A stretch of DNA of 64,000 nucleotides from a virus: positions 1-64,000 of IMG/VR virus record IMGVR_UViG_3300031521_000029, one strand, 5' to 3'. A program made the position numbers and the translations under genes. The number at the start of each line of letters is the position of its first letter. Positions within the stretch are counted from its first letter, which is position 1. Shown here piece by piece: positions 22,957-35,394 of this stretch. The notes under the pieces were generated by a model. The model was not told where the DNA came from and did no database searches. It saw only the letters and a list, made by a program, of their open reading frames with translations.

Positions 22957-23270
22957 ATAGATGCTTCTATGATATAATTGTCAGATTTAAACTCCAATAC
23001 CAGCCCACTTCCTTTAAAAATTGGATATTGATGTCTACCACCACTCCCCCAAAGGCCTTCTATATTAGTAGAATAATTATTGAACAGATATAGCGATGAA
23101 TCATCACTGCGTTTATCAACGTAAACATCCTTCACACGATATGACCCATTTATGGTAACATTACATTTTGTAGGAGGTGTAATTATTTTAACATTTTCTA
23201 GTTTCAATGGGGACATTCCATCGGTAGGATATTCTGATTGTATCATACTTAGATATACAATTTCATTCAT
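22953..23270 (-). CDS. Hypothetical protein (105 aa)
   Basis: Mostly beta strands with Gly/Asn turns (NVTINGSYRVKDVYVDKR, LYLFNNYSTNIEGLW, GLVLEFKSDNYIIEA), suggesting a small beta-barrel. It overlaps the Thg1-like gene by eight bases. Unrecognised. Confidence 0.58.
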   Translation of the reverse strand: MNEIVYLSMIQSEYPTDGMSPLKLENVKIITPPTKCNVTINGSYRVKDVYVDKRSDDSSLYLFNNYSTNIEGLWGSGGRHQYPIFKGSGLVLEFKSDNYIIEASI

Positions 23271-24072
23271 ATTTAGGAATCATGTTAGATAATGTTTCTT
23301 TATCCTGAGTAAACTTCCAAGCAGGTTTTGAAATCCACTTTGTTCTTTCACAAAGAATAGGCGGATATGAATCAAAAGTTAACGAAGCATTTTCTTTAAC
23401 TTTAACAATCAATCTTCCATTCTTCAATGCTTCGTCGTAAGTTGACCAATTGATGCCTTTTTGACTCATAAGCATCTCTTGCATTTCAGATGTGGATTTA
23501 CCTTGAAGTTCCTTATGAGAAAATTCTGACTGCGCAACCATAGACACTGCATTTCTAGCGCAATCTTGATTTCTCCAAATGAAGTAATTCATTACTTCTG
23601 TTCTATCAGGAATAGTAAATGCTCTTGAATCGAAATATGCCGGTGTGGTCTTACAAAAATATTGATTAAAATATGTAGGGGTATCATTATCTTTTTGTTT
23701 TAATAATTCTCTATTTAATCTAAGAGAATTAAAATTCGCTGTGATGATTGAAGCCGACACCGATACCATTTTTTGAATATTATTGTCAAACCAAGCCGAA
23801 GTAGTAGGTTTGGCAAAATCAGTAACAAGTACAGAAATTTCATCGGACTGGGTATAGGCAAAGACCGCCCCTTGGATGTGTGGAAGCATACAAACAATAG
23901 CATTGTCCATATCTTCATACAACTCCGTATCAAACGGTTTCTTTAAACCACGGGTATATGTGTGGAATGCTTTACCATCCAATCGGATGATAGTATATGT
24001 TCTTCTAGGAAGGAAATAACGAGTTCTGTGTTCGTATTGTTCCTTCATCCTTTCTCCAAGTTCATCTTTCAT
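23263..24072 (-). CDS. Thg1-like 3'-5' nucleotidyltransferase (tRNA-His guanylyltransferase family)
   Basis: Adds nucleotides to RNA 5' ends, opposite to normal polymerases. 269 residues. Residues 28-33 (IIRLDG) and the SDE at 76-78 (AYTQSDEIS) are the metal-binding palm motifs; the C-terminal YFIWRNQDCARNAVSM, FSHKELQGKSTSEMQEML and KGINW blocks match the Thg1 family. Bacterial/phage members (TLPs) repair 5'-truncated tRNAs. That would suit a phage with tRNA genes and RNA-repair enzymes, though G-1 addition to tRNA-His is possible too. Confidence 0.92.
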   Translation of the reverse strand: MKDELGERMKEQYEHRTRYFLPRRTYTIIRLDGKAFHTYTRGLKKPFDTELYEDMDNAIVCMLPHIQGAVFAYTQSDEISVLVTDFAKPTTSAWFDNNIQKMVSVSASIITANFNSLRLNRELLKQKDNDTPTYFNQYFCKTTPAYFDSRAFTIPDRTEVMNYFIWRNQDCARNAVSMVAQSEFSHKELQGKSTSEMQEMLMSQKGINWSTYDEALKNGRLIVKVKENASLTFDSYPPILCERTKWISKPAWKFTQDKETLSNMIPKYE

Positions 24073-25566: not shown

Positions 25567-26399
25567 ATAGTTTGATTGTTTTTAGACCACTCTTCAAATG
25601 CTATTGCCGATACTTTCTCAACAATTTTATTTTTCGGAGCCGCATATGTTCCAGCAGAAGTAAACGAATTCATTTCCATCAACCAATAATTTCCATCATT
25701 ATCTTCACAAATATCAACTGTGAATACAGGGTCAGGATACCATCCGTTTTCAAGAATTTCATTTACAAGTTTTGTTGCCTTAAAAGGAGCGCTTGGAACG
25801 TAAGTTCTTTGATTGTTGTATTTGTATAAAGAAACGCCCAAAATTTCTTTATTCTTTGTACAAATGAAACGCCACTCACCCCGGATGTTCTTAGGTGTAC
25901 TGACAACAACCATAGCCTTGTCATCAGTCACATTACAATGAACAATATCTTTCCAAAAGTTGTCAAAATCTTGTAAGTCAAGAAGTCTGCCTGTAAATGT
26001 TTTATCTCCGCCATTTGGACGAACATAAAGAATAGCATCTTTAGCAAAAGTAGCATAGAAATTCCATTTATTATGTTTCAACCCACCGACAGTAGTAAAC
26101 ACATGCCAGTCATTGAACAAAAACTTTTGAACGTGAGGGTAGTAGTTACTACAAAGATAGTTGTCATCTGTCATCCAACCTATAGGATAGGCGCCAAGTT
26201 CGGCTTTTAGTTTTCTAAAGAGTTGAATAGAACCTTGGAAAACTACACATTCACCTTCGGTAATAAGGCCAGGCCTCAATTCAAAGTGATTACGCACGTC
26301 AAGGACGATACATTCCATTCCCTGACGACGTACTTCAGCGATAAGGTCTTCGTATCCATTGTCTCCGACAAAATTTTCAATTAACCATTTAACTTTCAT
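25563..26399 (-). CDS. ATP-grasp protein, R2K-clade-like
   Basis: 278 residues. Features of an ATP-grasp ligase are FVRPNGG-like ILYVRPNGGDKTFTG (nucleotide loop), RGEWRFIC, and the metal site VDICEDNDGNYWLMEMNSF. The two arginines and lysine placed this way resemble the R2K clade of phage/bacterial ATP-grasp proteins. These probably form an amide bond between a carboxylate and an amine, with an unknown substrate; peptide tagging has been suggested for the clade. It has its own promoter and heads an operon with the Cys-rich and DUF4326 genes. Confidence 0.78.
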   Translation of the reverse strand: MKVKWLIENFVGDNGYEDLIAEVRRQGMECIVLDVRNHFELRPGLITEGECVVFQGSIQLFRKLKAELGAYPIGWMTDDNYLCSNYYPHVQKFLFNDWHVFTTVGGLKHNKWNFYATFAKDAILYVRPNGGDKTFTGRLLDLQDFDNFWKDIVHCNVTDDKAMVVVSTPKNIRGEWRFICTKNKEILGVSLYKYNNQRTYVPSAPFKATKLVNEILENGWYPDPVFTVDICEDNDGNYWLMEMNSFTSAGTYAAPKNKIVEKVSAIAFEEWSKNNQTI

Positions 26400-26405
26400 A
26401 CGAAG

Positions 26406-26434
26406 ACCCTATCATACAAACTATAATTTGTCAA
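26406..26434 (-). promoter_or_regulatory. Sigma-70-type promoter for ATP-grasp operon
   Basis: TTGACA at 26429-26434, 17-base spacer ending in TGA, TAGGGT at 26406-26411; six bases to the ATG. Confidence 0.68.
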
Positions 26435-26440
26435 TGAAGT

Positions 26441-26641
26441 TTATGATACCGTTTCGACAGGAGCCGGTTTGATTTGAGTATCGAGAACATATGTGTGAGT
26501 ATAATCATAACCTGCAATTGGAGTTTCCAATTCAATGATAATCACAGGCCCTACCGACCCACACACTTTACCCCAACCAAATGGAAGCTTTTCACCCATG
26601 ACAAAGTACACTCTATCGTTTTGTTTATATTTTTCGTTCAT
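26441..26641 (-). CDS. Small SH3-like hypothetical protein (66 aa)
   Basis: KYKQNDRVYFVMG, FGWGKVCGSVGPVIIIELE and YTHTYVLDTQIKP alternate as short beta strands with a central Gly turn, like small SH3-like or KOW-like barrels. Four-base overlap with the next gene. Function unknown. Confidence 0.6.
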   Translation of the reverse strand: MNEKYKQNDRVYFVMGEKLPFGWGKVCGSVGPVIIIELETPIAGYDYTHTYVLDTQIKPAPVETVS

Positions 26642-26847
26642 AATTTATATTCTTTAATAATTTGTGGAATTTGATTACATTCTTTGTGTTGTTTAAATAC
26701 AAACTTAATATAATCTTCGGCATTTTCAATGTCATCAAATTGTTCTAAATAATCTGAATAACCACTATAAAAATTCCACCAAAGGCCAAACCACCTTCTT
26801 TGTGGTTGAAATTTACCAAATCTGTTTTTAATTATTCTAAATTTCAT
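26638..26847 (-). CDS. Small hypothetical protein (69 aa)
   Basis: Basic and aromatic N-terminus (RIIKNRFGKFQPQRRWFGLW), then an acidic helix. Overlaps the AAA+ gene stop by four bases. Unrecognised. Confidence 0.57.
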   Translation of the reverse strand: MKFRIIKNRFGKFQPQRRWFGLWWNFYSGYSDYLEQFDDIENAEDYIKFVFKQHKECNQIPQIIKEYKL

Positions 26848-27972: not shown

Positions 27973-29544
27973 TTAAACAACAACTGAATCATACCTCTTA
28001 TCTGTGATGGTCTTCAACATCAATCCTAACGGGGTTAGGAACGAAGTAGAACAAATCTGTTTCAAGATGGATGGGTGACTACCACTGACCATCGCTACAC
28101 CTGAATCTGTCACTTTAACAGGAACATTGTTCTGACTGGAATTAACCTGCCACCATACGATATTTGGAATTCTATAACCAGCATTCTTAAACTTTTCCTT
28201 CATCAACTCATAGTTGGTCTTGTCATTTGATGATAACGCCGGGTCAAATTGCATATCACTGATGATAAATAATACCGAAGGCAAATCCTTTTGTTCCACA
28301 TGATTTCTCGTAGCGGTATTAAGAATTAAATCCAATGATGCTTGAAGGTTAGTGTTCATGTCCCAACCATCCGAATCCAAATTCGTATACTTCTCCAAAA
28401 GGTTGTTACCAACAATTCGATGAAACTTAGGAGTATTGGAGAATGTCATAAAGACATCCTTGAATGGCCCGTTGTTGCGTTCAGCAAAGTAAATTGCCAA
28501 AGACACAGCCACATACAATGGCAAACCATTCATTGAACCTGAAGTGTCTGCAATGACCAATCCTTTTCCGTCACCCTCGACGAAATTAGGCAACGCCTTC
28601 CATTGCAAATCGGCTGCTTTGATGGATGTTGGTGACTGTTGATGTTCTACGAGGGTTCGTAGAATATCATAAGGATACAACGTTGTGGCATTAATTTTGG
28701 CTTCACCCTTCTCAACCTTGGAAAGATAACTCTTATAACTATCTCCGGCTTTCTTTTCAAAAGCCTTACGATAGTTCAAAGATGCTTTGGAAGGAACTTG
28801 TTCAAAGTTAATGTTCGACCATTCCTGTGCGCACATCTTAACTTCAACAACTTCAATATACTTGCGTAGTTGTGAAAGAGTCTTACGATATTTCTTTGAG
28901 TTCCATCCCAAAGATTCACGGAATTTACGAGCCAAAGATACCGATTCCTTTGAAGAAGTGTTTTCGGACTTCAGCCACTTGGCCAAAAGTGAAACGTTCT
29001 TGTTTGCCTTCATCATCATCCAATCGGCAGCCAACTGTTCTGTGAACAGTTTGAGAGCGTCCTTTTCAAGTTCGGTGTCAAACAAAGAATACAAATCGTC
29101 CCAACGACCAAATATTGAAATGTTTTGAATGTTCTTACGAACCACATCTGGATAATTCTTCGCCAACCAACTGATAATTGTACGAAACGTCTTACGTTCA
29201 CCTTGTCCACCACGGACGTCACGAATATAAAACAAAATCTTAAGAGCCAACAACTTATCCTCTGCAAAAGCTTTGGTGAAAAGTTGGATTACATCATTAT
29301 CACTACGAGTGCGCAAAGCGCCAGCATTTCCGAAGAAATCCAATAGATAGTTGAGTGTACTCTTGTATGCAATCGCACCATTTTCGGTAGTGGTAATGTT
29401 GCTGGCATTTTCAAGTCCAGCTACAAGTGGATTGACGGTTGGACGAAATCTATTTACCAAAACGGACTTTTGGATTGCCTGTACATCTTCGTAACCAAAG
29501 TTTTGGGTGTTAACTGCGACTGTGTTTTTTGCGTTCTTCTTCAT
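27973..29544 (-). CDS. DUF2828/Ro60 (TROVE)-like protein with C-terminal vWA domain
   Basis: 523 residues. The first ~320 are helical-repeat-like with DUF2828-type marks: ILFYIRDVRGGQGERKTF, FGRWDDLYSLF, KYRKTLSQLRKYIEVVEVKM and a VPSKASLNY motif. A vWA domain follows with the MIDAS DTSGSM at 333-338, an ISDMQFD strand and a C-terminal helix. Helical repeats plus a MIDAS vWA domain is the architecture of the Ro60 autoantigen, which binds Y RNA and misfolded RNA. The homology to Ro is by architecture only. Its upstream gap holds three conserved hairpins, a candidate RNA partner. An SD-like AAAGGA precedes the ATG. Confidence 0.82.
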   Translation of the reverse strand: MKKNAKNTVAVNTQNFGYEDVQAIQKSVLVNRFRPTVNPLVAGLENASNITTTENGAIAYKSTLNYLLDFFGNAGALRTRSDNDVIQLFTKAFAEDKLLALKILFYIRDVRGGQGERKTFRTIISWLAKNYPDVVRKNIQNISIFGRWDDLYSLFDTELEKDALKLFTEQLAADWMMMKANKNVSLLAKWLKSENTSSKESVSLARKFRESLGWNSKKYRKTLSQLRKYIEVVEVKMCAQEWSNINFEQVPSKASLNYRKAFEKKAGDSYKSYLSKVEKGEAKINATTLYPYDILRTLVEHQQSPTSIKAADLQWKALPNFVEGDGKGLVIADTSGSMNGLPLYVAVSLAIYFAERNNGPFKDVFMTFSNTPKFHRIVGNNLLEKYTNLDSDGWDMNTNLQASLDLILNTATRNHVEQKDLPSVLFIISDMQFDPALSSNDKTNYELMKEKFKNAGYRIPNIVWWQVNSSQNNVPVKVTDSGVAMVSGSHPSILKQICSTSFLTPLGLMLKTITDKRYDSVVV

Positions 29545-29562
29545 AACTATTTTCCTTTTTGC

Positions 29563-29734
29563 TAGATGGTTTGTTTTTCCTTGAATGGTTTATTTGCTGT
29601 TCCCATCTAAATTTTACAAGATTCGTGTCTTACGACAGTTTTCAATATAATGAATATAATGCTGTTCGAATCTTAAATTGGGCTAGATGCTTTTTTGTTT
29701 TTTATATAAAAAAATTAACTGCTGTTAGCATCTA
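29563..29734 (-). ncRNA. Triple tandem hairpin element upstream of DUF2828/Ro60-like gene
   Basis: Three stem-loops on the minus strand. A: stem 29684-29690/29728-29734; B: 29618-29625/29667-29674; C: 29563-29569/29603-29609. Stems are 7-8 bp and perfectly paired, and differ by compensatory changes (TAGATGC/GCATCTA, AAGATTCG/CGAATCTT, TAGATGG/CCATCTA). In each, AACAGCA follows the 5' stem strand at 0-1 base. Loops differ; B contains an inner TGTC-GTAA-GACA hairpin. Copies are 8-9 bases apart and fill the whole 204-base gap up to the ATG. Could be a Y-RNA-like ligand, a 5' UTR operator for the protein, or a DNA element. Confidence 0.7.
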
Positions 29735-29748
29735 AAACTGACTTTATA

Positions 29749-30174
29749 TTACTGCCAAACAACTTGTGCGATTACTGCCTGTGACGTTGCATTTGTTGGC
29801 GTTGGAGTTTTTACATATAATACGAGTTGATATGTAGCAGTATTAGTGGCCGGAAATGTCACAGTTCCATTTGTACTACACCAAATCATACCGTCTGCTC
29901 TTCGTTGAACTGCAACAGCAGAACGATATGGAGTTCCATATCCAGACACATCCGTAAATGTAGCCTGAGTCGTTCCGACTGGAGGAGTCAACCAAAAAGA
30001 CGCTGCCCCATTGGTCATTTTCAATGAACCACGATAATCGCCGGGGCATCCTGCGACAGGAGATTTTGCCGCAGAAATCGTAATTGTGTTTGTTTGTGTA
30101 TAGGTTGTTTGAGCATTTGATACAATTACCAATCCAATTGTCATTGCCAATCCTAAGAATAGTTTTTTCATCAT
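29749..30174 (-). CDS. Small exported protein (141 aa)
   Basis: Signal peptide KKLFLGLAMTIGLVIVSNAQ with the S-x-A-Q ending typical of Bacteroidota, then a Thr/Ala/Gly-rich beta domain (TNTITISAAKSP, FWLTPPVGTTQATFTD, YQLVLYVKTPTP) resembling a small Ig-like or pilin-like sandwich with two Cys (CPGD, WCST). Likely periplasmic or surface. Its transcript probably continues into the triple hairpin and DUF2828 gene, since no terminator lies between. Confidence 0.7.
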   Translation of the reverse strand: MMKKLFLGLAMTIGLVIVSNAQTTYTQTNTITISAAKSPVAGCPGDYRGSLKMTNGAASFWLTPPVGTTQATFTDVSGYGTPYRSAVAVQRRADGMIWCSTNGTVTFPATNTATYQLVLYVKTPTPTNATSQAVIAQVVWQ

Positions 30175-34368: not shown

Positions 34369-35394
34369 ATGAATAAATTAGCGACAATACAAAAAATCCA
34401 TTCAATTCAAATACATCCAAACGCCGATAATTTATCCATTGCCCGGGTTTTAGAATGGCCAATTGTTGTAAAAAAAGGCCAATTTAGTGAGGGAGAATTG
34501 GTGGTATTTATTGAGATAGATTCAATTGTTCCAGAAACACAATATTTTGAATTTATGAGAAAACAAAAATTCCGAATCTGGAATGCAAGATTTCGTGGAA
34601 GTCCAAGTTCAGGATTAGTTTGTCCATTGTCAATTTTACCACAAAAAATAACAATCGACGACGATGGTTATGAAATAAACAATACATACAACGAAGGTGA
34701 TGATGTTTCCACGATACTTGGTATAACAAAATATGAAAAGCCACTAGACGTTACTGTCCGTGGTGACGCCGCAGGAAATTTTCCAACCAGTTTGATTTCG
34801 ATTTCTGATGAAGATAATATGTTAAGTAATTATAATTCTTTAGAAGAACTAGAAAACAAAGAGATTTACATCACTCAAAAAGTTGATGGTAGTTCTACCA
34901 CATTTATATTTAATGACGGAGAATTCAAAGCCTGTTCAAGACGATTTGAGTTAAAAGAGGGAAGTGGATTTCCTTGGCAAGCAGCAATCAAATATGATGT
35001 TCGTAATAAGATGACGACGTTGAATAGAAACCTTGCCATTCAGTGTGAATCCATTGGGCCAAAACTCAATGGCAACTCAATGGAGTTGAAAGATTTGGAG
35101 ATTAAAGTATTTAGAATCAAGGATTTGGATACCAGAGAGATTTTAAATTATTTTGATTTAAGTGTTATGTGTAATAACGTATTAAATTTACCGATGGTTG
35201 ATGTAATAGACCGGTTTATATTTGATAAAAACATTCACACCATTGAGTATTTCAGACAACTTGCAGATTCACAAACTTGGAAGACCAATGGTAAGCCAGG
35301 CGAGGGGGTGGTGGTAGCCCCAACGATTCCTTTTTATTCACCCTCCATAGGGAAGGAGTGGAGTTTAAAATTAATTAATCAAAATTACAAATGA
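34369..35394 (+). CDS. RNA ligase (DRB0094/Rnl5-like) with N-terminal OB fold
   Basis: 341 residues. The first ~120 (IQKIHSIQIHPNADNLSIARV, GELVVFIEIDSIVP) form an OB-like domain as in DraRnl. The ligase core has motif I QKVDGSS with Lys171, ACSRRFEL, ECxGPKLNGN-like CESIGPKLNGN, EGVVVAP (motif IV) and SLKLINQNY (motif V). DraRnl-type enzymes seal 3'-OH/5'-P nicks whose 3'-OH strand is RNA. Together with the cREC and kinase genes next in line it forms an RNA-break repair set. Confidence 0.88.
   Translation: MNKLATIQKIHSIQIHPNADNLSIARVLEWPIVVKKGQFSEGELVVFIEIDSIVPETQYFEFMRKQKFRIWNARFRGSPSSGLVCPLSILPQKITIDDDGYEINNTYNEGDDVSTILGITKYEKPLDVTVRGDAAGNFPTSLISISDEDNMLSNYNSLEELENKEIYITQKVDGSSTTFIFNDGEFKACSRRFELKEGSGFPWQAAIKYDVRNKMTTLNRNLAIQCESIGPKLNGNSMELKDLEIKVFRIKDLDTREILNYFDLSVMCNNVLNLPMVDVIDRFIFDKNIHTIEYFRQLADSQTWKTNGKPGEGVVVAPTIPFYSPSIGKEWSLKLINQNYK

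Follow-up and report, generated by a model that had tools for sequence, protein, structure and literature searches.

What are three hairpins doing upstream of a phage's Ro60-like gene? The stretch of DNA analysed here (the window) comprises positions 1 to 64,000 of the IMG/VR virus record IMGVR_UViG_3300031521_000029 and encodes, on the minus strand at 27973-29544, a DUF2828/DUF7788 Ro60-like protein of 523 amino acids. A first-pass annotation of the sequence had pointed out that the gap before this gene (29545-29748) is filled by three tandem stem-loops, each containing AACAGCA, and on the minus strand this is what we find. Because the hairpin recurs beside this gene in phages that are unrelated, and also in some bacterial genomes, it is very probably the RNA recognised by the Ro60-like protein. 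In our view the three hairpins are likely to serve the phage's own protein as minimal binding elements of the Y-RNA type, with a twofold action in cis and in trans; binding, repression and the release of small RNAs are steps that we infer.

All three units share one order of parts: strand a, a linker of 1-3 nt, CAGCA, a G-poor loop, the complementary strand b and a constant G. Unit 1 (29735-29683) reads TTAGATGC-TAACAGCA-loop-GCATCTA-G, with AACAGCA at 29726-29720 and the terminal G at 29683. Unit 2 (29675-29617) reads TAAGATTCG-AACAGCA-loop-CGAATCTT-G, the corresponding positions being 29666-29660 and 29617, and unit 3 (29610-29562) reads TTAGATGG-GAACAGCA-loop-CCATCTA-G, with AACAGCA at 29601-29595 and the G at 29562. 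As had been claimed, pairing of the stems is kept despite sequence change, but their length is 7-8 bp rather than 5-6 bp, and the constant G after each stem had gone unmentioned. The loops (25-34 nt) contain no tRNA-like module. Within the window, it is true that they have no other sequence in common, but loops of such units are G-poor in general, and that of the last unit can be aligned with the loops of relatives. The 3' end of unit 3 lies 17 nt from the start codon, the two being separated by AAGGAA (29552-29557, minus strand), which is Shine-Dalgarno-like in sequence. An Rfam search of the window returned tRNAs only, and RF02553 (YrlA) has no match in the phage's 102-kb record.

Are these hairpins more than chance would produce? 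The word AACAGCA is no commoner in the window than expected (6 versus 7.05), and the folding energy of the gap (-29) is just moderately low compared to shuffled sequences (-22.2 +/- 3.2, z -2.1). Given this, it follows that the case depends on covariation and recurrence. Covariation was counted in an alignment of nine homologous units (A2), in which 95% of cells pair and 4 of the 9 pairs vary on both sides. Double-change cells number 12, against a shuffled mean of 4.9, and the paired cells drop to 45% or less when the pairings are slid out of register. These data bear out the earlier claim of compensatory changes in the stems. For the last unit, the arms TTAGATGG/CCATCTA of the window correspond to TGAGATAG/CTATCTC in relatives; the loop remains alignable, so both arms have changed together.

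Recurrence was evident at several distances. The nearest phage types, L002 and L003 (73-74% protein identity), have the same arrangement as the window, with three units directly before the gene in L002, one of them carrying GTGCAGCA, and two in L003. Copy number among relatives is 2-3 in close ones and reaches about 8 in Aeromonas LAh_9. Units also adjoin the gene in Listeria AG20, Vibrio KVP40, Escherichia wV8, Mycobacterium Itos and Nicholas, Bacillus PJN02 and vB_BcoS-136, Synechococcus B23, Enterococcus A2 and EF5, Campylobacter CP39 and Staphylococcus S-CoN_Ph11. In an unbiased hexamer scan of both strands of 59 DUF2828 viral loci, words around CAGCA headed the ranking for a preceding stem, and did so on the coding strand alone (TTCAGC, 48 of 142). 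A stricter test covered 73 DUF2828/Ro60-like loci to a distance of no more than 1.2 kb from the gene, with gene borders on viral contigs extrapolated from tblastn matches, and called for a perfect stem of at least 7 bp before CAGCAA. Such a stem precedes 95 of the 198 CAGCAA on the coding strand, spread over 46 loci, compared to 2 of 53 on the opposite strand; in this test, the best-scoring other hexamers of the same letters (ACAGCA, AACAGC) overlap the CAGCA element itself.

How specific is the element? We built a covariance model, R1, from 27 diverse units, three of them from the window; a 41-sequence alignment (A3) in which two registers were mixed was excluded. All 7 base pairs of R1 vary on both sides, and its terminal G is invariant. 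One caveat here is that the training stems were picked for pairing, so that their 100% pairing is no evidence, whereas the variety of pairs is; the E-values are likewise rough. R1 scored units 1, 2 and 3 at 51.7 bits (E 3.1e-10), 34.5 bits (E 6.2e-6) and 37.9 bits (E 8.7e-7), and no further match appeared in the window (to E = 5) or in the full 102-kb record (to E = 1). A covariance-model search of this kind, proposed in the first-pass annotation, yielded matches in 21 of 21 DUF2828 phage records tested, most of them near the gene and some in tRNA arrays. In 60 bacterial genomes, a set independent of R1 building, five matches at E <= 1e-3 fell in three genomes, all of them among the eight that contain DUF2828. 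Each of the five lies just upstream of DUF2828, on the contig and strand of that gene. In the bacterial genome G001, both R1 matches adjoin its DUF2828 gene. No match was seen in T4, which has a tRNA array and gave no DUF2828 hit here, or in SPO1. These data support specificity of the hairpin element for DUF2828 loci. The computable outcomes that had been named as counting against the hairpins, an absence of homologous units near other DUF2828 genes or their random occurrence elsewhere as repeats without paired stems, did not materialise.

The protein itself combines a HEAT-like helical part with a vWA domain in which the DxSxS metal-site residues are invariant. Its PHROG match is phrog_850, an RNA-binding protein. 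Searches of the PDB with its sequence produced nothing useful, and the link to Ro60 therefore rests on fold comparison. At E <= 0.001, the AlphaFold model (pLDDT 85) matches only 1YVR (E 1e-6), 9KOP and 9L5Y, that is, the Ro autoantigen (1YVR), one TROVE-domain structure and Ro60 of Thermus phage phiLo. By this comparison the window protein is predicted to have the Ro60 fold, in line with how the gene had first been described. It thus resembles Ro60/TROVE proteins in predicted fold and vWA metal-site residues but differs in sequence family, which is PF11443 (E 7.5e-45) and PF25043 (E 2.8e-44), corresponding to DUF2828 and DUF7788; TROVE (PF05731) is not among its Pfam matches. The DUF2828 protein of Listeria phage CKA15 has been detected in virions (PMC12282133).

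Given such a protein, how do the hairpins compare to Y RNAs? Like Y RNAs, the window units are encoded directly upstream of a Ro60-like gene, and so are units in relatives. Measured against YrlA (RF02553), they contain no tRNA-like module and score below the Rfam gathering threshold. Two mycobacteriophages show how the element and YrlA can be combined. In Nicholas, which is DUF2828-type, a YrlA match of 37.9 bits (full model) lies between two R1 units and is closed by TGGACCCC-CCA-CAGCAA ... GGGGTCCA-G, which places a tRNA-like module inside a putative Ro-binding stem, albeit at a sub-gathering score. A YrlA-like RNA of the same layout in Itos, TGGACTCC-TA-CAGCAA ... GGAGTCCA-G, is unflagged by Rfam. 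The mycobacteriophage YrlA-like RNAs with stem, CAGCAA and terminal G, between two bare units, are at L101:5560-5680 and L074:6603-6725. In light of this layout, the window hairpins look like the closing stem minus the tRNA-like module.

The resemblance to YrlA thus lies in a Ro60-fold gene next door and, in Nicholas and Itos, in an element that serves as the closing stem around a YrlA-like module; the window units differ in having no such module. Cellular TROVE genes of Mycobacteriaceae have YrlA-like RNAs without CAGCA, and we rejected identity of the element with the cellular YrlA Ro-stem because CAGCA was absent from the four cellular examples inspected. The TROVE-type mycobacteriophages Dandelion and Sparky have YrlA-like matches and, in the loci searched, no R1 match. 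Chen et al. 2014, as cited elsewhere, reportedly described Y RNAs close to Ro60 in both bacteria and phages. Since Y RNAs beside Ro60 genes, phages included, have been reported before, the window units are not a wholly new kind. Of the suggestion that they represent a new phage Y-RNA-like RNA, the likeness to Y RNAs has therefore gained ground, through specificity for DUF2828 loci, the Ro60 fold match and the RNAs of Nicholas and Itos, while the novelty holds only in part.

Unit position relative to the gene bears on function. In 15 of 35 loci, a unit ends no more than 30 nt from the start codon (inferred, in uncurated loci), a count that random placement matches in 0.085% of 20,000 trials. 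In many relatives, the end of the last unit falls on or close to the Shine-Dalgarno sequence, which strengthens the cis-acting option raised at the outset. In the window, the short distance from unit 3 to the ATG, with AAGGAA between, favours cis control, and this unit abuts the ribosome-binding site of the Ro60-like gene as expected of an autoregulatory leader. The leader position of the window units thus suggests autoregulation. Ribosomal protein operons provide an example of feedback leaders of RNA-binding proteins. The likeness would lie in a leader copy of the protein's ligand beside the ribosome-binding site, whereas units of the window type are in tandem and occur outside the mRNA as well.

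The object recognised would be a variable helix of 7-8 bp, joined by a linker of 1-3 nt to single-stranded CAGCA(A) and ending in a G after the other strand, with the ring protein gripping the helix end and reading CAGCA. In the window, these elements follow one another in the 5' leader of the mRNA for that protein. By binding the last of them, the protein would hide the ribosome-binding site, so that surplus protein would shut off its own synthesis. In trans, units may be excised and load the ring as small RNAs, in the fashion of Y RNAs. Feedback by ligand mimicry, which unites these cis and trans roles, is the reading we prefer.

Either role might suffice alone. If the window units were purely a cis-acting translational operator, leader-bound protein would provide negative feedback and no small RNA would be made. 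This is possible if doubtful: units precede the Shine-Dalgarno sequence in the window and in many relatives, and the window showed no promoter-like site in the interval from the upstream gene to the units, but units also lie downstream of the gene, within remote tRNA arrays and at the closing stem of tRNA-like RNAs, and L002 and L003 have a consensus-like promoter directly 5' of the first unit. Conversely, the units could act purely in trans, as Y-RNA-like small RNAs processed from the transcript, their proximity to the start codon being incidental. Tandem copies, a copy number that shifts among relatives and the presence of units among tRNAs would fit; we regard this as unlikely, however, as that proximity exceeds random placement and in KVP40 the ATG lies within strand b.

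Two further possibilities dispense with the Ro60-like protein or with RNA. The hairpins could be processing or stability signals for a host or phage nuclease, a notion prompted by their alternation with tRNA genes in several phages. The lack of R1 matches in T4, despite its tRNA array, and in SPO1, and the restriction of matches in the 60 bacterial genomes to sites beside DUF2828, make this very unlikely. Inverted repeats 5' of a gene can also act at the DNA level, as operators for a dimeric repressor. Here, the strong bias of the tag towards the gene's coding strand (198 versus 53, or 95 versus 2 with stems), the different arm sequences of neighbouring units, arms about 20-60 nt apart and the presence of the element inside tRNA-like RNAs render such operators exceedingly implausible.

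Several observations weigh against ligand mimicry. R1 learned from stems selected because they pair, and the strict test detects a unit in 46 of 73 DUF2828 loci, not in all. In some phages, units are found only downstream of the gene or in tRNA arrays, so leader control cannot be the general role; it can be argued from the units outside the leader that the protein also has ligands in trans. In CKA15, several noncoding regions upstream of the DUF2828 gene are highly transcribed, and the authors of that study suspected that Y RNAs are among them (PMC12282133). The one region for which they give coordinates, a noncoding stretch of ~490 nt at 26,236-26,727 (L071:5468-5959), is reported as one of the most transcribed. 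This stretch has no Rfam match and no CAGCA unit, and we rejected it as expression evidence since the unit is absent.

The element also appears in a third setting. Beside DUF2828 genes, we found ~30 RNAs of 110-126 nt that match the tRNA model except that an insert of 38-52 nt enlarges the anticodon arm (e.g. L018:5571-5683, L018:5755-5872, L025:5527-5640, L016:5586-5697 and L076:6863-6972; about 25 others). C[A/T]GCA is present in the insert in 30 of 30 examined, usually as a hairpin followed by the tag, i.e. with strand b before strand a. Removal of the insert leaves a perfect 5-bp anticodon stem and 7-nt loop in many, although the script chose the best segmentation and the fit is partly by choice. 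The circular order a, CAGCAA, T arm, acceptor, D arm, b is common to these RNAs and the Nicholas RNA. Such RNAs could be either intron-bearing tRNAs or Y RNAs whose ends differ. A more far-reaching proposal, which we consider quite unlikely, is that DUF2828 phages have real tRNA genes whose 38-52 nt inserts bear a permuted Ro60 element; splicing would depend on the Ro60-like protein recognising the insert, a phage RNA ligase would join the halves, and the window hairpins would be feedback copies.

The element thus comes in three guises: it can stand alone as a bare hairpin, close a tRNA-like Y RNA as its outer stem, or sit within the anticodon arm of tRNA-like RNAs. Their shared cyclic part order bears on the relationship between Y RNAs and tRNAs. 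A helix end, CAGCA and a terminal G would make a compact recognition code for a widespread, barely studied phage Ro60-like family, and a Ro60-type protein may here be under feedback control from its own ligand. The covariance model can find DUF2828-associated RNAs in unannotated genomes.

Some neighbouring features deserve mention. Directly upstream of the units, 29749-30174 (minus strand) encodes a 141-amino-acid protein that begins like a signal peptide and matches nothing in Pfam or PHROG. Two other products of the window, a Thg1-like tRNA guanylyltransferase (23263-24072, minus strand) and an RNA ligase (34369-35394, plus strand), suggest RNA repair functions near the Ro60-like gene. In CKA15, a 'tRNA splicing ligase' (OR088597.1 21153-22364) lies ~1.3 kb downstream of the DUF2828 gene. 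Lak megaphages are reported to have unexplained tRNA introns (PMC6784885), which resemble the RNAs above as short inserts in phage tRNAs, a link that is a lead only. In Prevotella phage Lak-B9, a candidate unit lies just 5' of a weak DUF2828 match (L095:11826), and a weak R1 match (437578-437632) lies away from that DUF2828 candidate. Finally, hairpins standing alone with NNACAGCAA directly after, again with b before a, occur near DUF2828 genes on bacterial contigs (L081:1449, L081:1589, L083:7249, L083:8122 and L083:8256).
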